DNA of 64,000 bases from Dyella thiooxydans (lineage in GTDB: Bacteria > Pseudomonadota > Gammaproteobacteria > Xanthomonadales > Rhodanobacteraceae): assembly GCF_001641285.1 (NCBI RefSeq), contig NZ_CP014841.1, positions 1,488,001 to 1,552,000 on the forward strand. Direction: 5' to 3'. The position numbers and the translations under genes were made by a program. A model generated the notes under the pieces. The model was not told where the DNA came from and did no database searches. It worked only from the letters and a program-made list of their open reading frames with translations. Shown one piece after another: positions 34,481 to 44,124 of the stretch (position 1 is the first letter of the stretch; every line of letters starts with the position of its first letter).

Positions 34481-35314
34481 ATGACTTCTTCCGTGAAACC
34501 GATCACAGCCGAAGCCCCGCGCGGCAGCATCGCCTGCGTGGGAGTCGGCATGACCCTGGGCTCGCATCTCACGCCGCTGGCGCGCAGCCATATCCAGCAA
34601 GCCGACGTGGTGTTTACCGCGGTATCCGATCACGTCGTGGCGCTGTGGCTGGAACGCATGCACCCGGACGTGCGCAGCCTTCATGGCTACTACGGGCACG
34701 GTAAATCACGCATGATCACCTACAAGGAGTGGGTGTCAGTGATGATGGCTGAAGTCAGGGCGGGAAAGCGGGTATGCGGTGTTTTCTACGGTCACCCCGG
34801 GGTCTTCGCCTGGTCGCCCCACAAGGTAATCGAACTGGCGCGGTCCGAAGGGTACCTCGCCCATATGGAGCCAGGCATTTCTGCCGAAGACTGCCTCTAT
34901 GCCGACCTCGGCATCGACCCCGGGCGATTTGGCTGCCAGCATTTCGAAGCAAGCCAACTCCTCCTATACGAACGCCGCATAGATCCTTCCGCGTACCTCG
35001 TGCTTTGGCAGGCCGGTCTGGTTGGCGACTTGTCCCTCACGCGCTTTTCCACCGGTGCGGCTTATCGGCGAGTACTCGTTCAACGATTGGCCGAGGACTA
35101 CCCGCTGGACCACCAAGTCATTGTCTACAGTGCACCAACACTGCCGATACAACAGCCGGAGATCGTCCGCGTAGCGCTTCGGGAGCTACCCGAAGTTGCC
35201 ATGACCGCCAAGGAGACCGTCGTAGTGCCGCCGGCGATCCCGCTAAAGCAGAATCTGGCAATCCGGGCCGTCTTGGAGGCCCTGGATGCCGAAGCAGCTC
35301 GATTGCCCACCTGA
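34481..35314 (+). CDS. Borosin alpha-N-methyltransferase (split type, PF00590 fold)
   Basis: The 277-residue protein belongs to the SAM-dependent tetrapyrrole-methylase fold, but its conserved blocks are those of peptide-backbone N-methyltransferases (OphMA, SonM). These are CVGVGMTLGSHLTPLA, GVFYGHPGVF (100-109), EGYLAHMEPGISAEDCLYAD, GCQHFEASQLLLYERR and VLWQAGLVGD. With Y71, R77, Y81 and Y103 the spacing of the OphMA catalytic residues Y66, R72, Y76 and Y98 (from memory) is reproduced. The fungal enzyme carries its substrate at its own C-terminus; here the protein stops after the methyltransferase domain and a short clasp-like tail. The substrate is encoded separately 55 bp downstream, as in Shewanella SonM/SonA. 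GC is clearly lower than in the flanking genes. Precorrin or CysG activity is unlikely. Confidence 0.9.
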   Translation: MTSSVKPITAEAPRGSIACVGVGMTLGSHLTPLARSHIQQADVVFTAVSDHVVALWLERMHPDVRSLHGYYGHGKSRMITYKEWVSVMMAEVRAGKRVCGVFYGHPGVFAWSPHKVIELARSEGYLAHMEPGISAEDCLYADLGIDPGRFGCQHFEASQLLLYERRIDPSAYLVLWQAGLVGDLSLTRFSTGAAYRRVLVQRLAEDYPLDHQVIVYSAPTLPIQQPEIVRVALRELPEVAMTAKETVVVPPAIPLKQNLAIRAVLEALDAEAARLPT

Positions 35315-35369
35315 CGTCGGGGTGTCGAGATTCACTAACCGCTGGAAACTGAAGCAGGGGGATTTCAAG

Positions 35370-35633
35370 ATGAGCCATACGGTCGAATTACTGGAGGCGA
35401 TCGGAGCCAACGCCGAACTGCGTCACGCAGACAGGGACTCGCTTGCCGCCAAGTTGCGCGAGATTGGGGCAAGCAGCTCGTTGCAAGCGGCGGTCGCCTC
35501 TGGCAACGCTATGGATCTGAAGTCAGAGCTTGGGCATCGTCAGATGGGGGAGCCTCAGATCGTCCACTCTCCGGGCAAGGAAGATGAAGAGGTCCCCGAT
35601 GAGGACGACGACGAGGACAAGGATGGCGAGTAA
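35370..35633 (+). CDS. Borosin precursor peptide (SonA-like)
   Basis: The 87-residue protein has three parts. Residues 1-57 form a predicted small helical bundle (TVELLEAIGANAELRHADRD, then LAAKLREIGASSSLQAAVAS, then NAMDLKSELG) like the borosin-binding domain of split systems. Residues 58-68 (RQMGEPQIVHS) hold a short beta-branched stretch, Ile64-Val65, the likely site of backbone N-methylation. Residues 70-87 are very acidic (DEDDDEDKDGE at the end). AGGGGG before ATG 35370 sets the start; the frame is open to 35286 but overlaps the methyltransferase gene. There is no signal peptide. No protease or exporter gene adjoins. The precursor assignment rests on context plus architecture; the exact core is inferred. 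Confidence 0.8.
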   Translation: MSHTVELLEAIGANAELRHADRDSLAAKLREIGASSSLQAAVASGNAMDLKSELGHRQMGEPQIVHSPGKEDEEVPDEDDDEDKDGE

Positions 35634-35664: not shown

Positions 35665-37458
35665 ATGACTCGGGGAAAAGGTAGGGGTAGCTTTTGGCTT
35701 GTTGCCGCCGTCGTTTTCGCGACGGTGGTTTTTTGCTGCCCGGCATTCTGCACGCAGGCCGGAAGCTCTCCTGCCATCGGAGATCCTGCAGCATTTCTTG
35801 CGCAGACCGAGAGTTTGCGCATCAAGGATCATCGGCTATTCGCCCAGCGCCTTGCCCTACTCCACCGCGTGTCCCCCACACTCACCCCAGCCGAGCAGTG
35901 GCAGCTGAAGTATCTCGACGCGCTCGAATCTTCGCTGGACGGCAATTTCGCAGCAGCAACCGAGCCGCTAAGGGACGTGATCGATCATTCCGGTGACGTT
36001 GATCTTGCGGCGAAAGCTTCCGCGGCCCTGTTGACCAACCTCACGGCGACGCATCGCTACGAAGCTGCATTCAAGCTCGCCAACGAGATGACCCTCAATC
36101 TACCGAAGCTCCGTTCCCGGGAGTCACGATTCCAGACCCTGGGCGCGTTGTCGCAGATGCTTAATTTTGCGGGCCAGACGGAGCTGGCCACAAAATATGC
36201 GCAGATGATGATGAACACGATCCCGGAAAACGCTACCGAATGCGATCCGGATTTCAAACTGGCAGCGGCCTTGTCCAATGCCGACAAGCTCAGATCGTCA
36301 AGCACCGAGCTCGCCAGGGTCATCAAAACTTGCACTGCGGCACACGAACCGGTGGTTACCGCGGCCGCGGAGCTCATCCTCAGCTCGCTTTACCTCAAGG
36401 AGAAGCAGCCATCAAAGGCCCTCTCCGTACTGAATCAAATCAATCCGACGGTCATCAAGAATCGATACTACCCGCACCTGTTGTCGTCACTGTCACAGCG
36501 GGCGCAGGCCTACGAGCAACTTGGTCAGGACGAAAACGCCAAAAAGGCCGCCAAGGAAGCAATCGCCATAGCCAAGCCCGGCGAGATCAGTGGGTATCTC
36601 CGCTCGGCACTCGAGGTGCTCTACAAGATTGCCAGGAAGGAGGGCAATGCGGCCGACGCACTCAACTATTACGAGCAGTTCGTAGTTCAGGACAAAGGCT
36701 ATATGAACGACCTCAGCGTTCCGGTCATTGCCTACCAGACCGTCCAGCAAAAGGTACTCACACAGAAGCTCGAGGCCGAGAGCCTCAGCAAGCAAAACCG
36801 GATTCTGACCCTGCAGCAGGAACTGGATGCCAAAGCGGTTGAAACCAGTCGGCTGTATATCGTGCTGCTGCTGATCGGCCTGACCGGCATCGTGCTGTGG
36901 CTGCTGCGCCTGAAACATTCGCAGCTCCGTTTCAAGCGCATGGCCACCCGTGACGGTCTGACCGGCATCCTCAATCATCAGCACTTCATCAACGAATCCG
37001 AGCGACAGCTCCGCCACCTGGAACGCAAATCGGGGCATGCCAGCCTGCTGTGGATGGACCTGGATCATTTCAAGCAGATCAACGATACCCATGGCCACGC
37101 CGCCGGTGACGCCGTGCTGCGCCATATCGTGGCGGTCTGCAACGATCATCTGCGCCCCGGCGACCTGTTCGGGCGCCTGGGCGGCGAGGAATTCGGCATC
37201 CTGCTGCTGGAATGCGAGCGGGACCACGCCATCGCCATTGCCGATCGCATCCGCCTGGCGATCGAAGGCAATCCCCTGGAGCACGAGGGCATGATGCTGA
37301 AGGTTTCCGCCAGCGTCGGTATCGCCTCCACCTACAACGCGGGACATGCCCTGCAGCGACTGTGCCGACAGGCCGACGCCGCGCTCTACCGGGCCAAGCG
37401 CGACGGCCGTAACCGGGTGATCGCGGATGCGGGGGAAGGCACTTCTGTTTTCGTATGA
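35665..37458 (+). CDS. Periplasmic TPR-sensor diguanylate cyclase
   Basis: The 597-residue protein has a signal segment (VAAVVFATVVFCCPAFC) and a periplasmic helical, TPR-like sensor of about 350 residues. A coiled segment (LEAESLSKQNRILTLQQELD) leads to a membrane helix (about 393-411) and a C-terminal GGDEF domain. The active site is GGEEF and the inhibitory RxxD site (RPGD) lies five residues before it, so it should make cyclic-di-GMP and be product-inhibited. It starts 31 bp after the borosin precursor, without a terminator between, so co-transcription is likely. The sensor-coding part is low in GC, while the GGDEF part approaches the genome average and resembles the paralogue at 37746. 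The ribosome binding site is weak. Confidence 0.9.
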   Translation: MTRGKGRGSFWLVAAVVFATVVFCCPAFCTQAGSSPAIGDPAAFLAQTESLRIKDHRLFAQRLALLHRVSPTLTPAEQWQLKYLDALESSLDGNFAAATEPLRDVIDHSGDVDLAAKASAALLTNLTATHRYEAAFKLANEMTLNLPKLRSRESRFQTLGALSQMLNFAGQTELATKYAQMMMNTIPENATECDPDFKLAAALSNADKLRSSSTELARVIKTCTAAHEPVVTAAAELILSSLYLKEKQPSKALSVLNQINPTVIKNRYYPHLLSSLSQRAQAYEQLGQDENAKKAAKEAIAIAKPGEISGYLRSALEVLYKIARKEGNAADALNYYEQFVVQDKGYMNDLSVPVIAYQTVQQKVLTQKLEAESLSKQNRILTLQQELDAKAVETSRLYIVLLLIGLTGIVLWLLRLKHSQLRFKRMATRDGLTGILNHQHFINESERQLRHLERKSGHASLLWMDLDHFKQINDTHGHAAGDAVLRHIVAVCNDHLRPGDLFGRLGGEEFGILLLECERDHAIAIADRIRLAIEGNPLEHEGMMLKVSASVGIASTYNAGHALQRLCRQADAALYRAKRDGRNRVIADAGEGTSVFV

Positions 37459-37745
37459 CCTGCCGCTCGCGACTCCAGGATTCCCCAGGCGTGAAATCCA
37501 CGCCCCCCCCGCCTTCCGCCCGGACATCAACCTTTCCGCTCCGCTGCCGTCATTGCAGGGAGCGCCGGGCATCCCGGCATTCGTTGACTGTTCGAGGAAA
37601 GGATGTTGTTGAGCTTCCCCCACGCAGGGCCGGCGGCCCGGTCCAGGTGTGATCACCAAATGGCCATGGACAGGGTCAGCCTGCGCGTCTGTTCGGCGCC
37701 GTGTGTCGGCACCCCCGCACCAGGGCGAAGCTGATTGCGACTGAC

Positions 37746-39545
37746 ATGTCTCCTCGCCGCCTTTCCCGCCCGTTCCGACTGACCGCCGCCGTGCTTGCCA
37801 CGGCCCTGTCGTTGTGGGCGGCATGGGCGACTGCCGCGATCACCGACGTCGGGGGCTTCCTGGACCAGACCGAGAGCATCCGGCTGAGCGACCATTCGCG
37901 CTTCGTGCAGAAGCTCGCGCAGATCCGCCAGGAAGCTCCGGCGATGACCTCGTCGCAGCAGTGGCGGCTGCGCTATCTGGAGGGTTGGGAGTCCGCCTTC
38001 GAGGGCGACTACCCCACGGCGGAAACCCGGCTGAAAGACGTGGCCAGCCACTCCGGCGACATCAACCTCGCCGCCAAGGCCGGGGCGCTCTTGCTGAGCG
38101 TCCAAGTCCTGAACCAGAAGTACGACGATGCCTACCGGGGGGCTGCGGCGATGGTCGCCAGACTGCCGGGCGTCACCAGCAACGATGCCCGCCAGACGGT
38201 GTTGCACAACCTGTCCCAGGTACTCGACTTTGCCGGCCAGCCCGACCTGGCGCTGAAGTACGCCCGAATGATGCGGGATCCGTTGCCCGCCGGTGATTCA
38301 CCGTGCGACAGCATGGCGCTGGAGATCGCCGCGCTGGAAAGCCTGGGGAAGCTCAACTCGTCCAGCGCGGGATTAAGGCAGACCATCCAGACATGCCTCG
38401 CCGCCGGGAAACTGGTAATCGCGGACACCGCCCGACTGATCCAGGTCGACCGCTACCTTGCCGAGCACCGGCCGCGAGACGCGCTCGAACTGGTCGAGCG
38501 CACTGCCGCGGATATCCGCAGCACCGGTTATTACCCGCACTTGCTGGCGATGCGGTTGCAGCGAGCCCAGGCCAACCTGGCACTGGGCCATGATGCCGAA
38601 GCCGAGCAGGCGGCCAGGCGCGTCATCGCGATGAGTACCGCCGACGACAAGAGCATTCATCTGGCCGACGCCTACCACGTGCTCTACGAGATCGAGAAAA
38701 AGCACGGCCACGGCATGGCGGCGCTGGACGACTACGAGCACTACGTCACGCTGAACACGAGCTACCTCAACGACGTGTCCGCGCGTGCGCTCGCCTACCA
38801 GCGCGTGCAGCAGGACCTGCTCGCCCAGAAAATGCAGAACGAAGCGCTGGAGCGGCAGAACCAGGTCCTGCGCCTGCGGCAATCGCTCACTGAACAAGCG
38901 GCACGCACCACCCGACTCTATGCCTTACTGCTGCTCGGGCTGCTGACCCTCCTGGTGCTCTGGCTGCTGCGGGTCAAGCGCCTGCAGCTGCGCTTCCGCG
39001 AGATGGCGCGCCGGGACGGACTCACCGGCATCCTCAACCACCAGCACTTCATGCAGGAAGCCGAGACCCTGGTGGCCGAGCAGGCGAAGCGATCCGGCAA
39101 CGTGGCGCTCGCGCTGATCGACCTGGATCACTTCAAGCAGATCAACGACGTCCACGGCCACGTGACCGGAGACCTGGCGCTGCGCCATATCGTGTCGGTG
39201 GTGCAGGCCTGGCTGCGCCCCGGCGACCTGTTCGGTCGCCTGGGTGGCGAGGAATTCGGCCTGCTGCTGAGCGGCTGTGCGCACGACGACTGCGTCGCCC
39301 TTGCCGAACACATCCGCGAGGCCGTGGCGGCGACACCGCTCCGTCTGGACGATGAGCCGATCGTCGTCACCGCAAGCATCGGCATGGCGTTTGCCGAGCG
39401 AGTGGGCTTCGACCTGTCCCGGCTGTTCCACCACGCCGATGCCACGCTCTACGCAGCGAAGCGGGCCGGCCGCAACCGGGTCATGACCGAGCTCACCGAC
39501 GAGGATCTGCTCGGCCGTTCAGTGCGCGATCCCCGTCCCGCCTGA
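37746..39545 (+). CDS. Periplasmic TPR-sensor diguanylate cyclase, paralogue
   Basis: The 599-residue protein has the same architecture as the preceding gene: a signal peptide (LTAAVLATALSLWAAWATAA), a helical periplasmic sensor, a coiled segment (QNEALERQNQVLRLRQSLTE), one membrane helix and a GGDEF domain with GGEEF and an intact RPGD inhibitory site. The two sensors align along their length (FLDQTESIRLSDHSRF here, FLAQTESLRIKDHRLF there), so they are duplicates. GC here is at the genome average throughout. ATG 37746 is preferred over the open frame to 37701 because it gives a normal signal peptide. The 287-bp gap before it shows no terminator with a T tract. It ends 6 bp from the convergent third GGDEF gene. 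Confidence 0.9.
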   Translation: MSPRRLSRPFRLTAAVLATALSLWAAWATAAITDVGGFLDQTESIRLSDHSRFVQKLAQIRQEAPAMTSSQQWRLRYLEGWESAFEGDYPTAETRLKDVASHSGDINLAAKAGALLLSVQVLNQKYDDAYRGAAAMVARLPGVTSNDARQTVLHNLSQVLDFAGQPDLALKYARMMRDPLPAGDSPCDSMALEIAALESLGKLNSSSAGLRQTIQTCLAAGKLVIADTARLIQVDRYLAEHRPRDALELVERTAADIRSTGYYPHLLAMRLQRAQANLALGHDAEAEQAARRVIAMSTADDKSIHLADAYHVLYEIEKKHGHGMAALDDYEHYVTLNTSYLNDVSARALAYQRVQQDLLAQKMQNEALERQNQVLRLRQSLTEQAARTTRLYALLLLGLLTLLVLWLLRVKRLQLRFREMARRDGLTGILNHQHFMQEAETLVAEQAKRSGNVALALIDLDHFKQINDVHGHVTGDLALRHIVSVVQAWLRPGDLFGRLGGEEFGLLLSGCAHDDCVALAEHIREAVAATPLRLDDEPIVVTASIGMAFAERVGFDLSRLFHHADATLYAAKRAGRNRVMTELTDEDLLGRSVRDPRPA

Positions 39546-39551
39546 ACCCGC

Positions 39552-40706
39552 CTAAAGGTGCCTGCGCACCGTACCCGGCACCAATTGCGCCATCATCGTT
39601 TCGTCAGCCGCGACGGCATGGTTGCGGCCGCGCTGCTTGGCTGCATACAGCGCCGCGTCCGCCCGCGCGAACAGCTCGTCGAGCTGGTAACCCTGATCGG
39701 GATCGGCCTGGGCCACGCCCAGGCTGAGCGTCAGGCCAGGGACCGGCGGCTCGGCGTGCGGAGCGCGTGCGGCAACCGCCAGGCGGAGGGTCTCGGCCAG
39801 CGAGAGCGTGCGCGCGGCATCCTGGCCCGGGCTGGCGATCATGAATTCGTCGCCGCCGAAGCGACCGAACAGATCGTCGCTGACCAGGTGCTCACGCACC
39901 ACGCCGACCACCAGCGCCAGCGCCGCGTCACCCACCAGGTGGCCGTGGCGATCGTTGATCTGCTTGAAGTGATCCAGGTCGAACACGATCAGGCTGAGCG
40001 GCTGGCCGTACTTGGACAAGTGGTCGATCCGGTCGCGCAGCTCGGCCCCGAACGCCTGCCGGTTGAGCGTGCCGGTGAGAGGATCGTGCATGGACAGGTG
40101 TTGCAGCTTCTCCGACTTGCGCTGCAGGTGGCTGTGGGCTGACTTCAGCACGCGCTGTTGGCGCGCCAGCCGCTCGGTCTCCGCTTTCAGCCGCTGGCTG
40201 TGGCGCCAGGCCGTCCACCAGGCAGCGGCCAGTACGGCCAGCAGCACCAGCCACGGCCAGGTCGGCGCCTTGTGGGACTCCGGGGGCGAACCGGGAGCGG
40301 CTCTCGCTCCCGCCGGCAAGGCGTCCGCCACGCTGACCGGCGGCGGCGCCGAAGCGGCCGGAGTCGGGATGGATGCAGCAGGCGCGGGCGCCACCCGGGA
40401 TGCCGTCGCTGGCGTCTCCGGCTGCAAGCCGGCGGTGTGCCCGGAGTCGCTCGCCACGCGTGCGGGAGCGGGCGCCGTCACGATGGGCACCGTGGCTGGC
40501 AACGTCGCCGGCTGCCGCATTGCCTCCGGTGGTGGTGGCGGCGGGAATCGACGCGGTGGCGGCATGCCGGGCGGAGGTGGCGGTGGCGGCGGACGCATCC
40601 CGCGCGGCGGCGGAAAACGAGCCGGGTCCCCCTGCTGCCCGTGCGCGGGCATCATGCCGGCACAAGCCAACACGGCGGCCACCAGCAAGCCAGCCAGTCG
40701 ATGCAT
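39552..40706 (-). CDS. GGDEF protein with a proline-rich periplasmic region
   Basis: The 384-residue protein starts with a signal peptide (GLLVAAVLACAGMMPAHG). A periplasmic region of about 120 residues follows, extremely rich in Pro and Ala (runs of eight and six Pro), then one membrane helix (WPWLVLLAVLAAAWWTAW), a coiled coil and a GGDEF domain. The catalytic motif is GGDEF, so it should be active; the inhibitory position has VSDD instead of RxxD, so product inhibition is probably lost. The proline-rich arm may span peptidoglycan or bind a partner; no ligand domain is recognised. AGGGGA is next to ATG 40706. It converges with the paralogous cyclase gene. Not homologous to those two outside GGDEF. 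Confidence 0.88.
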   Translation of the reverse strand: MHRLAGLLVAAVLACAGMMPAHGQQGDPARFPPPRGMRPPPPPPPPGMPPPRRFPPPPPPEAMRQPATLPATVPIVTAPAPARVASDSGHTAGLQPETPATASRVAPAPAASIPTPAASAPPPVSVADALPAGARAAPGSPPESHKAPTWPWLVLLAVLAAAWWTAWRHSQRLKAETERLARQQRVLKSAHSHLQRKSEKLQHLSMHDPLTGTLNRQAFGAELRDRIDHLSKYGQPLSLIVFDLDHFKQINDRHGHLVGDAALALVVGVVREHLVSDDLFGRFGGDEFMIASPGQDAARTLSLAETLRLAVAARAPHAEPPVPGLTLSLGVAQADPDQGYQLDELFARADAALYAAKQRGRNHAVAADETMMAQLVPGTVRRHL

Positions 40707-42171: not shown

Positions 42172-44124
42172 CTATTTCTGCGCGGCGATGATCTGGTCCA
42201 GGTAGTCCGGCGTGCCCTTGACCCGCTCCAGGTGCGGGTACTGCAGGCCGCCGTGGTAGTCGACCGCCACATGCCGGTAGCCGCCCTGGTACTTCAGCAG
42301 CAGGTCGATCGGTGCCTGGCCGGTTTTCGCGGCCGTGATCGCCTGCTTCAGCACGTCCTTGGAATAGTCCTGCCCGTTCACTGCGACGAGGGTCGCGCCG
42401 GTGCTGACGCCCGCCTTGAACGCCGGACCGTCCCAGCGCACGTCGTTGATCACGCCACCGTCGGCCATGGTCAGGCCGATCGACCAGGTGAAGTTGTAGA
42501 GATGGCGAGACGATTCCGATCGGCTGTTGTACTGCTTCTCGTAAGGGCTTTCCTGGTCGGTGTAGACCAGCTTCCAGCCGGTGCCCGCCAGACCGTCCAG
42601 CAGCGGCGGATCCAGCATGTCGACGCGCTGGCGCAGGAACGTTGCCCAGTCGTACTTCGCCACCCCATCGAGCGCGGCGACCACGTCGTCGAAGGTGTAG
42701 GTCTTGGTCACGTAGCTGCCGTTGTCGACGCCGAAGAACGCCCTGGCGAAATCGTCCAGCGACTTGTGGTCATGGGTGAGCGCGCGCAGCTTGGCATCCA
42801 CGGCGAGCCAGACCATCTGGCCGGCGCTGTAGTACTCCTCGCTCATCTGCCAGCTGCGGTACGGCAGCGCGGCGCGTCGGGCCGCAGTCGGGTCGTTGGT
42901 GGTGTCCTCCAGCGTGCGCCACCGGAAGCCCTCGCGGTTGCGGTCGTAGTTCGCGGCCACCATCGCCAGCGCGTCGCGGAACTGCTCCGGCGTCCACATC
43001 CCGGCACGCGCGGTCAGCACGAAGCCCCAGTACTGGGTCTGACCCTCGTAGACCCACAGCAGGGAGTCGCCCATCGGCACGTTGAAGTTGGGCGTCCACA
43101 AGTCCGCGCCACGGCGGAACTTGCCGTTCCACGAGTGGGTGAATTCGTGCGCGAGCAGGTCGCGCCCGGGCGCCGCGTCGTCCCAGGCGGTGAAGTAGTC
43201 GGCGCCCAGGCCGTTCTCGCTGGACTGGTGATGCTCGAGGCCGTTGCCGCCCAGTTCGTCGGAGAGCGAGAACAGGAAGTCGTAGTGGTCGTAGTGATGC
43301 GATCCGAACAGCTTGGTGGCCTGCACCGCCAGGTTGCGGTGCACCTGCACCTGGTGCGGCGTCATCACCAGGTACTTCGGCGCATCGGCGACCACATCCA
43401 GGTGCACCGGCGCCCCGCCTGGCGGGGTCAGATCCACCCGCTTGAAGTACTTGCCCGCGTAGATCGGGGAGTCGACCAGGTGGTTGAAGGTGACCGGCTT
43501 GAAGGTGGTCGTGTCGCCCGACTGCGCGGCAGTCTCCAGCGCGCTGCCGAACTGCCAGCCCTCCGGCAGGCTCACGCTGGGCGCGAAGGTGATCCGCCGC
43601 GAGTAATAGCCCGCCGGGTACAGCGCCACCTTGTTCCATTCCAGGTCGAGCATACGGTCGGTCATCTCGAAACCGCCGCGGCGATCGGACAGGTACTGGA
43701 ATGACACGTCGAGGCTGGACACGCCCGCCGGCACGTCGAGATGAAACGCATAGACGTCGTACTTGTCGCGCGTCCACCTGAGCGGCTTGCCATCGGCCCG
43801 GACTTCCAGCCCGGCCAGCATGGCGATCGGGCCCGTCGGCGAATGGTCGCCCGGAATCCACTGCGGATACAGCAGCGTGAACGGACCGGGCTTCACCGGC
43901 ACGGTCTCGTGCACGCGGTAGATGCCCTGCCGGGTGTCGCTGGCATCGACGTGGATGGCCACGGTGCCCGGATACGGCACGTCCTGCGGCGCCGGCACGT
44001 TGCCGCTGCGTGATGACTGGGCGCTGGCGACCGCGCTGCCCAGGACCAGTGCAATAGCCAATGTGACACGCGAAAAATTGCGGTTCGCGGCGAGCGGCGA
44101 ACCGTTGGCGGGAAGGGAGAACAT
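42172..44124 (-). CDS. M61-family metallopeptidase (glycyl aminopeptidase type) with PDZ domain
   Basis: The 650-residue protein has a signal peptide (VTLAIALVLGSAVASA). An N-terminal beta domain precedes the catalytic domain with LLAHEFTHSWNGKFR (zinc HExxH at about 326-330) and WVYEGQTQYWG, which supplies the third ligand Glu. The C-terminal part carries a PDZ domain (VINDVRWDGPAFKAGVSTGA, LVAVNGQDYS). M61 enzymes are periplasmic aminopeptidases preferring Gly/Ala, and several Xanthomonadales carry paralogues. GGAG lies 7 bases before ATG 44124. The frame is open to 44199 without coding character. The gene is the first in its direction after a 181-bp gap; no partner is evident. Confidence 0.9.
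   Translation of the reverse strand: MFSLPANGSPLAANRNFSRVTLAIALVLGSAVASAQSSRSGNVPAPQDVPYPGTVAIHVDASDTRQGIYRVHETVPVKPGPFTLLYPQWIPGDHSPTGPIAMLAGLEVRADGKPLRWTRDKYDVYAFHLDVPAGVSSLDVSFQYLSDRRGGFEMTDRMLDLEWNKVALYPAGYYSRRITFAPSVSLPEGWQFGSALETAAQSGDTTTFKPVTFNHLVDSPIYAGKYFKRVDLTPPGGAPVHLDVVADAPKYLVMTPHQVQVHRNLAVQATKLFGSHHYDHYDFLFSLSDELGGNGLEHHQSSENGLGADYFTAWDDAAPGRDLLAHEFTHSWNGKFRRGADLWTPNFNVPMGDSLLWVYEGQTQYWGFVLTARAGMWTPEQFRDALAMVAANYDRNREGFRWRTLEDTTNDPTAARRAALPYRSWQMSEEYYSAGQMVWLAVDAKLRALTHDHKSLDDFARAFFGVDNGSYVTKTYTFDDVVAALDGVAKYDWATFLRQRVDMLDPPLLDGLAGTGWKLVYTDQESPYEKQYNSRSESSRHLYNFTWSIGLTMADGGVINDVRWDGPAFKAGVSTGATLVAVNGQDYSKDVLKQAITAAKTGQAPIDLLLKYQGGYRHVAVDYHGGLQYPHLERVKGTPDYLDQIIAAQK

Follow-up and report, generated by a model that had tools for sequence, protein, structure and literature searches.

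Why should a gene for a peptide backbone N-methyltransferase lie in one run with a gene for a receptor-like diguanylate cyclase, and what would such a run of genes do? We addressed this question for a locus in a window of 64,000 nucleotides (the whole stretch of DNA analyzed, positions 1488001-1552000 of a 4,227,172-base genome that consists of a single contig). The original prediction described a protein at 34481-35314 followed, 55 bases on, by a protein of 87 residues, and both open reading frames were found where it placed them (Table 1). Positions 35315-35369 form the gap between these two forward-strand genes, and 31 bases separate the second gene from the TPR-GGDEF gene, which starts at 35665. 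The list of open reading frames puts the start of the small gene at 35286 (115 residues); across the family, it is the ATG at 35370 that is kept as start. Scans of the locus for promoters and terminators gave no more than scans of shuffled sequences.

Table 1. Features of the borosin locus, in window coordinates.
Feature	Position	Strand	Basis
SonM-type borosin peptide alpha-N-methyltransferase, 277 aa	34481..35314	+	PDB and Pfam matches, conserved residues
Split borosin precursor, SonA-like, 87 aa, ATG start	35370..35633	+	Family profile E=1.1e-33; SonA register
Leader (residues 1-55), a borosin-binding domain with five predicted helices	35370..35534	+	AlphaFold2; SonA best fold matches
Q63-I64-V65, predicted core	35556..35564	+	Gapless register with methylated SonA L63, I65
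Acidic C-terminal tail, residues 71-87	35580..35630	+	Sequence
Receptor-like TPR/membrane/GGDEF diguanylate cyclase	35665..37458	+	Pfam GGDEF E=1.4e-42; GGEEF motif; AlphaFold2
Second TPR-GGDEF protein, start codon uncertain	37701..39545	+	Sensor profile E=1.2e-153

To establish the identity of the first protein, we compared it with PDB chains using phmmer. The top match is SonM (7ltc_A, 237 bits, E=2.2e-69), and the fungal enzymes OphMA, dbOphM and MroMA match at 1e-46 to 5e-51 (OphMA at about 4e-50), whereas the best tetrapyrrole methylase chain reaches E=0.002. The four blocks named in the original prediction (GVFYGHPGVF, PGISAED, FEASQLLL and WQAGLVG) are all found in the protein, and the four residues that it took to be catalytic and shared with SonM, Y71, R77, Y81 and Y103, align with SonM Y58, R67, Y71 and Y93 (phmmer alignment, read by eye) and are conserved in 130, 130, 129 and 130, respectively, of the 132 distinct relatives. 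According to Miller et al. (PMC8429565), mutation of these SonM residues lowers activity. The window enzyme differs from SonM in that the Y71-R77 spacing is three residues shorter than that of Y58-R67. By its sequence matches, the protein is a SonM-type borosin alpha-N-methyltransferase, and the prediction's choice of this family over CysG and precorrin enzymes is upheld. The opposite reading, a tetrapyrrole-type small-molecule methylase (CysG, CobA, RsmI and others) beside an unrelated small open reading frame, would account for the Pfam family of the enzyme (PF00590, 68 bits; three matches in the genome, where the enzyme matches itself alone at E≤1e-20). It deserves very little credence, given the distance between E=0.002 and the SonM value, the NCBIfam search, in which all models fell far below cut-off, and the genome-by-genome co-occurrence of the precursor with the enzyme. 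Thus the comparison with tetrapyrrole methylases and RsmI, carried out against PDB and NCBIfam, does not refute the borosin assignment.

The small protein is the single match of the precursor family profile in the genome, and this match, like that of the enzyme to SonM, greatly exceeds what chance would give. Searched with HMMER against the PDB, its sequence alone did not find SonA, and a 16-row precursor profile gave nine matches (best E=0.11), none of them SonA. Because HMMER failed to link the two proteins, we tested register and fold. Aligned with SonA from Met1 without gaps, the precursor is identical at 14 of the first 56 residues, and its gapless BLOSUM62 score of 40 compares with −34.5 (sd 14.5) for shuffled sequences, none of 5000 shuffles reaching 40 (z about 5). 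The mean register score of 16 family sequences against SonA is above zero at offset 0 alone, of 17 offsets. AlphaFold2 (66 sequences) predicts helices at residues 2-13, 15-19, 22-32, 36-44 and 48-54 and then a loose tail, with a mean pLDDT of 71 for the precursor and 77-85 for the leader. For comparison, the borosin-binding domain of SonA has five helices, and its methylation sites are L63 and I65 (PMC8429565). A Foldseek search of 350,542 PDB chains returned SonA in six of the seven precursor matches, with weak E-values (best 2.9), and VIA Z scores of the model against four SonA entries were 6.4, 5.6, 5.6 and 3.9, a range that also fits a mere common arrangement. Register, predicted helices and Foldseek and VIA matches agree, and we therefore conclude that the precursor is homologous to SonA: judged by alignment and model, it is a SonA-like split borosin precursor, with a five-helix borosin-binding domain predicted in the same register. 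The layout originally predicted (helical domain, Ile-Val segment, acidic tail, as in SonA) is borne out by the five helices predicted within residues 2-54, by I64-V65 and by the tail at residues 71-87.

In the window precursor, the residues opposite the methylated SonA positions 63 and 65 are Q63 and V65. I64 and V65 are present at the predicted core; Q63 takes the place of SonA L63, and the family consensus there is PQ. The window core (PQIVHSPG) is hydrophilic, unlike the more hydrophobic SonA core (YLVISHGNGD), and is followed by an acidic tail of 17 residues. The window system shares with SonM/SonA of Shewanella oneidensis, a type IV split borosin (PMC8429565), the enzyme family, the catalytic residues and a separate precursor gene beside the enzyme. 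It shares the methyltransferase sequence family and active site with the fused fungal borosins OphMA, dbOphMA and MroMA, from which it differs in that the precursor is separate from the enzyme. We are close to certain that methyltransferase and precursor form a borosin pair, with backbone methylation itself proposed by analogy; by that analogy, the pair very probably makes a backbone-methylated peptide.

The protein encoded at 35665-37458 begins with a hydrophobic segment. A TPR domain (about residues 41-325) follows, then a long helix in which a single membrane segment is predicted, and finally the cyclase (PF00990), whose GGEEF motif is intact and has the I-site motif RPGD five residues before it. 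Its Pfam TPR matches lie below cut-off. The AlphaFold2 model has a pLDDT of 90.7, with blocks of residues 41-340 at 90-98, and a TPR solenoid fold: against the TPR chain of APPBP2 (8jal_B) it gives Z 25.7 and rmsd 4.0 over 318 aligned residues. TPR folds are common. The 50 matches listed in a structural search with this protein were filled by GGDEF chains, with no RRNPP receptor among them; because the fold searches were filled in this way, we make no claim about the TPR ligand. RRNPP receptors (Rap, PlcR, NprR, Rgg) are cytoplasmic, and their peptide gene lies beside the gene for the TPR protein. In the window, too, a peptide gene adjoins a TPR-protein gene, but the TPR domain is predicted to be periplasmic and the output is a cyclase. 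The sensor region of the second TPR-GGDEF protein is 42.5% identical to that of the first over 374 residues. Two TPR-domain cysteines, C193 and C223, are invariant in 71 of 71 aligned proteins, including those of Alteromonas, and perhaps form a disulphide. At window positions 39552-40706 there is yet another GGDEF gene, the third, whose product has an N-terminus rich in proline; it is convergent with the operon and conserved in the loci L065 and L066.

How regular is the association of these genes? Among 233 genomes of the Rhodanobacteraceae, the enzyme was found in 162, representing 18 of 26 genera (E≤1e-20), and at the same threshold in 10 of 369 genomes of a class sample and 15 of 398 of a phylum sample, counts that include this genome and other family members. 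The original description of split bacterial systems as few does not hold in view of this abundance in the family. PMC11285071 states that bacteria widely carry gene clusters of type IV and that classes V-X have been defined; type IV itself was defined in PMC8429565. The precursor profile (A1, built from open reading frames downstream of enzymes and searched over whole genomes) matches in 157 of the 233 family genomes and the sensor profile (A2, E≤1e-25) in 158; overlaps of the enzyme, precursor and sensor genome sets were compared by reading tables. The sensor occurs in 157 of the 162 enzyme-positive genomes versus one of the 71 enzyme-negative ones (G080, 86% complete), and the five enzyme-positive, sensor-negative genomes are those of a genus with an enzyme-GGDEF fusion. 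Of the 369 class-sample genomes, two match the sensor profile at E≤1e-15 (this one and one family member), and both are enzyme-positive. The tie to a diguanylate cyclase proved the strongest part of the original prediction. These co-occurrence numbers are inflated, because genomes that share descent are not independent.

Adjacency was examined for 112 of the 132 distinct enzyme genes, those scoring at least 300 bits (hereafter close genes, which include L194 of Lysobacter). Gene calls in relatives came from our own caller, trained on the window and the loci, or from longest open reading frames. Of these 112 genes, 110 are followed by a precursor within 1250 bases and 100 by a sensor within 1300 bases on the same strand; in five more, the sensor lies behind further precursors. 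Among the remaining seven, L213 has a GGDEF gene behind other genes and L215 a cyclase remnant; L212, L214 and L075-L077 have no sensor gene in the flanks read (about 17 kb for L075-L077). The genome holds 51 GGDEF matches, so the chance of such an adjacency is about 1-2% (gene number estimated). In the 20 neighbourhoods compared, the cyclase is the most regular neighbour, and one locus (L081) keeps precursor and TPR-GGDEF gene without an adjacent enzyme. As a separate observation, a GNAT acetyltransferase-like gene stands beside the enzyme in L211, L213, L232 and L233 (Pfam on L232), possibly an extra tailoring enzyme.

Neighbours can persist in slowly rearranging genomes, and a single family supplies the bulk of the evidence; the GGDEF gene might then owe its place to descent only, without functional tie to the borosin. 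The loci outside the family bear on this. We read 26 of them with long flanks (6 + 20; the Lysobacter L194 is also among the 112 close genes), and 16 contain a TPR-GGDEF gene. In Lysobacter bugurensis and five Alteromonas/Alteromonadaceae loci, the enzyme, a small acidic-tailed open reading frame and the TPR-GGDEF gene follow in a row within different flanks. In ten of the 20 further loci (L231, L232, L234-L238, L240, L241, L244), a TPR-GGDEF gene adjoins the enzyme or the precursor, with sensor-profile E-values of 8e-64 to 5e-6; nine of the ten carry a GG[DE][DE]F motif, and L240 has a Pfam GGDEF match without it. L233 has a sensor match whose gene ends beyond the sequence read. In L233 and L240 the gene order is changed, and the pieces are still together. 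The shared arrangement within different flanks, the reordered loci and the fusion proteins described below all argue against mere descent, which we consider quite improbable. Comparison of the loci shows that, by sequence, a SonM-type enzyme, a SonA-type precursor with a borosin-binding domain and a receptor-like TPR-membrane-GGDEF gene form one co-directional run kept across families.

Other loci outside the family depart from this run. L239 and L242 encode, behind short open reading frames that look like precursors, a TPR hybrid histidine kinase (Pfam) where other loci have the TPR-GGDEF protein; the TPR parts of these kinases were recognized by Pfam TPR only and do not match the sensor profile. 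No recognised sensor was found in seven of the 26 loci (L243, L245-L250), and no precursor was identified in L244. The precursors of L237, L238 and L241 are close to SonA, and the genes upstream in these loci presumably resemble those before sonM in S. oneidensis. Two loci show further oddities: in L244, a hybrid histidine kinase-like gene lies directly upstream of the enzyme (by eye) and the TPR-GGDEF gene downstream; in L243, from another class of the phylum, the enzyme domain lies near the N-terminus of a 1174-residue protein in which Pfam finds the methylase domain alone.

In the genus without a separate sensor, the enzyme domain makes up the C-terminal portion of a GGDEF protein 821-845 residues long (one called at 777 residues, with a late start). 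There are six such genes in five genomes (G031, G034, G036, G039, G040; loci L206-L210), each with a SonA-like 72-residue precursor just upstream (one called with a longer start). Pfam finds TPR, GGDEF and methylase domains in the L206 fusion, and the sensor profile matches the fusion fragments L105, L106 and L111, not L107 and L109. In the gapless register with SonA, the six precursors reach scores of 79-117 (z 7.7-10.3), and they have no acidic tail. A borosin architecture with a GGDEF domain is on record, its source being perhaps Imani 2022. The Figure 1 legend of a 2024 paper (PMC11395268) places a GGDEF domain among borosin architectures; the window locus shares the tie of a GGDEF domain to a borosin system with it and differs in that the cyclase is a separate gene. 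The fusion genus may be this published type, and the cyclase link, which the original prediction thought undescribed, is not wholly so, as this legend already includes GGDEF. That paper was the sole match for borosin with GGDEF in the literature searched, as PMC8429565 was for SO1478-SO1480. The search, whose reach did not include Imani 2022, Cho 2022 and Lee 2024, found no paper joining borosin with diguanylate cyclase or c-di-GMP. It gave nothing relevant by title on peptide sensing by TPR-GGDEF proteins, and no borosin title among the matches listed for RiPP with diguanylate cyclase or tetratricopeptide.

What, then, would this arrangement do? By comparison with SonM/SonA, an enzyme dimer would bind the helical domain of the precursor in the cytoplasm and methylate backbone amides at or near residues 63-65. 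The genetics suggests that the TPR protein encoded alongside would take the methylated product (a peptide, or the small protein as a whole) as an input and, through its GGDEF domain, make c-di-GMP, so that the operon would turn peptide methylation into a c-di-GMP output. A real functional link of the borosin pair to the TPR-cyclase is quite likely, and we think it probable that we are dealing with a type IV-like split borosin organized as a signalling module. Counting against this reading are the core, less hydrophobic than that of SonA and with Q63 opposite L63, the sequence searches that missed SonA, the weak Foldseek E-value, the loci inside and outside the family in which no sensor gene was seen, and a run that includes no dedicated protease or exporter. 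The product could act on the TPR-cyclase from outside, through the TPR domain, or from inside, through the cyclase. The fusion and the acidic tails would fit cytoplasmic contact, and the kinase loci hint weakly at the TPR side. That the TPR domain itself recognizes the product is a somewhat doubtful step, the more so as the TPR parts of the kinase type do not match the sensor profile. We tentatively extend the proposal to many bacterial split borosins, which might be peptide-receptor signalling systems with the methylated product as ligand or switch of a TPR membrane receptor, c-di-GMP as output, in some lineages perhaps a phosphorelay, and synthesis and output fused in one genus. Most work on backbone N-methylation so far concerns drug-like peptides of fungi; a direct link would mean that this modification serves bacterial signalling in several families. 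The regular receptor-like partner offers a first place to look for the function of these little-understood peptides.

The proposed signalling role competes with that of an ordinary RiPP product, in which a housekeeping protease would cut the methylated core and a bioactive peptide would be released, with the TPR-GGDEF protein merely regulating production or sensing otherwise. Two genomes, G111 and G119, contain 18 and 13 precursor-profile matches, respectively, each over two loci. Their loci L073 and L074 hold precursor arrays with similar leaders and variable ends, e.g. YLPQVIQSYS or YAPQAVQTFLASDPD; such multiplication with variable cores looks like product diversification. Some Rhodanobacter and Luteibacter loci, whose cores are hydrophobic and repeated, point the same way, for example second loci of some Rhodanobacter with ends such as NVCCMMLPATVCCMMLPGM, and so do L075 and L076, which have TonB-dependent receptor and glycosyl hydrolase 92 genes (Pfam on L075) in place of the GGDEF gene. 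Against release of a product stand the gene run itself, which has no exporter or protease, the regularity of the cyclase in the 20 neighbourhoods, and the many genomes with a single precursor whose core is hydrophilic (PQxxQ). On balance we regard an ordinary RiPP as unlikely, though as the strongest competitor of the signalling module. Some details of these loci are recorded here for themselves: the array copy with an acidic tail in L073 and L074 is the last before the GGDEF gene; in L075 and L076, precursors flank the enzyme on both sides; and precursor ends in L185, L190, L192 and L216 are repeated, hydrophobic and often Cys-rich, and look like cores.

The acidic tail raises a further alternative, in which the whole methylated small protein would act on the cyclase from the cytoplasm, the tail being a docking tag that is dispensable in the fused genus. 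Among 152 distinct precursors matched by the family profile, at least eight Asp or Glu residues follow residue 66 in 104 of the 113 sensor-adjacent ones versus one of the 39 others, a contrast to be read with two limits in mind: the cut-off was picked after viewing the data, and the relatives, sharing descent, are not independent. Of the nine exceptions among sensor-adjacent precursors, six have Lys-rich or Pro-rich tails. Such a switch would also account for the absence of protease and exporter and for the missing tail of the fused-genus precursors; moreover, the enzyme comes after the GGDEF domain in the fusion and therefore lies on the same side as it. However, the precursors of L237, L238 and L241 adjoin a TPR-GGDEF gene and have no acidic tail, and we judge an intracellular action of the whole protein improbable, more so than an ordinary RiPP. 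As a general docking tag the tail was rejected: strong in the family set, the idea fails in these three loci.

The original prediction also stated that the locus is without protease or exporter. This stands for the genes of the run; an M61 peptidase gene is found 6.5 kb downstream, on the opposite strand. Pfam, run on the window protein, identifies it as an M61 glycyl aminopeptidase (window positions 42172-44124). Relatives of it lie near the borosin locus in L069, L081 and L082 (by clustering) and in L215 (by eye). A role as leader protease was considered for it and set aside, the proximity being put down to synteny.
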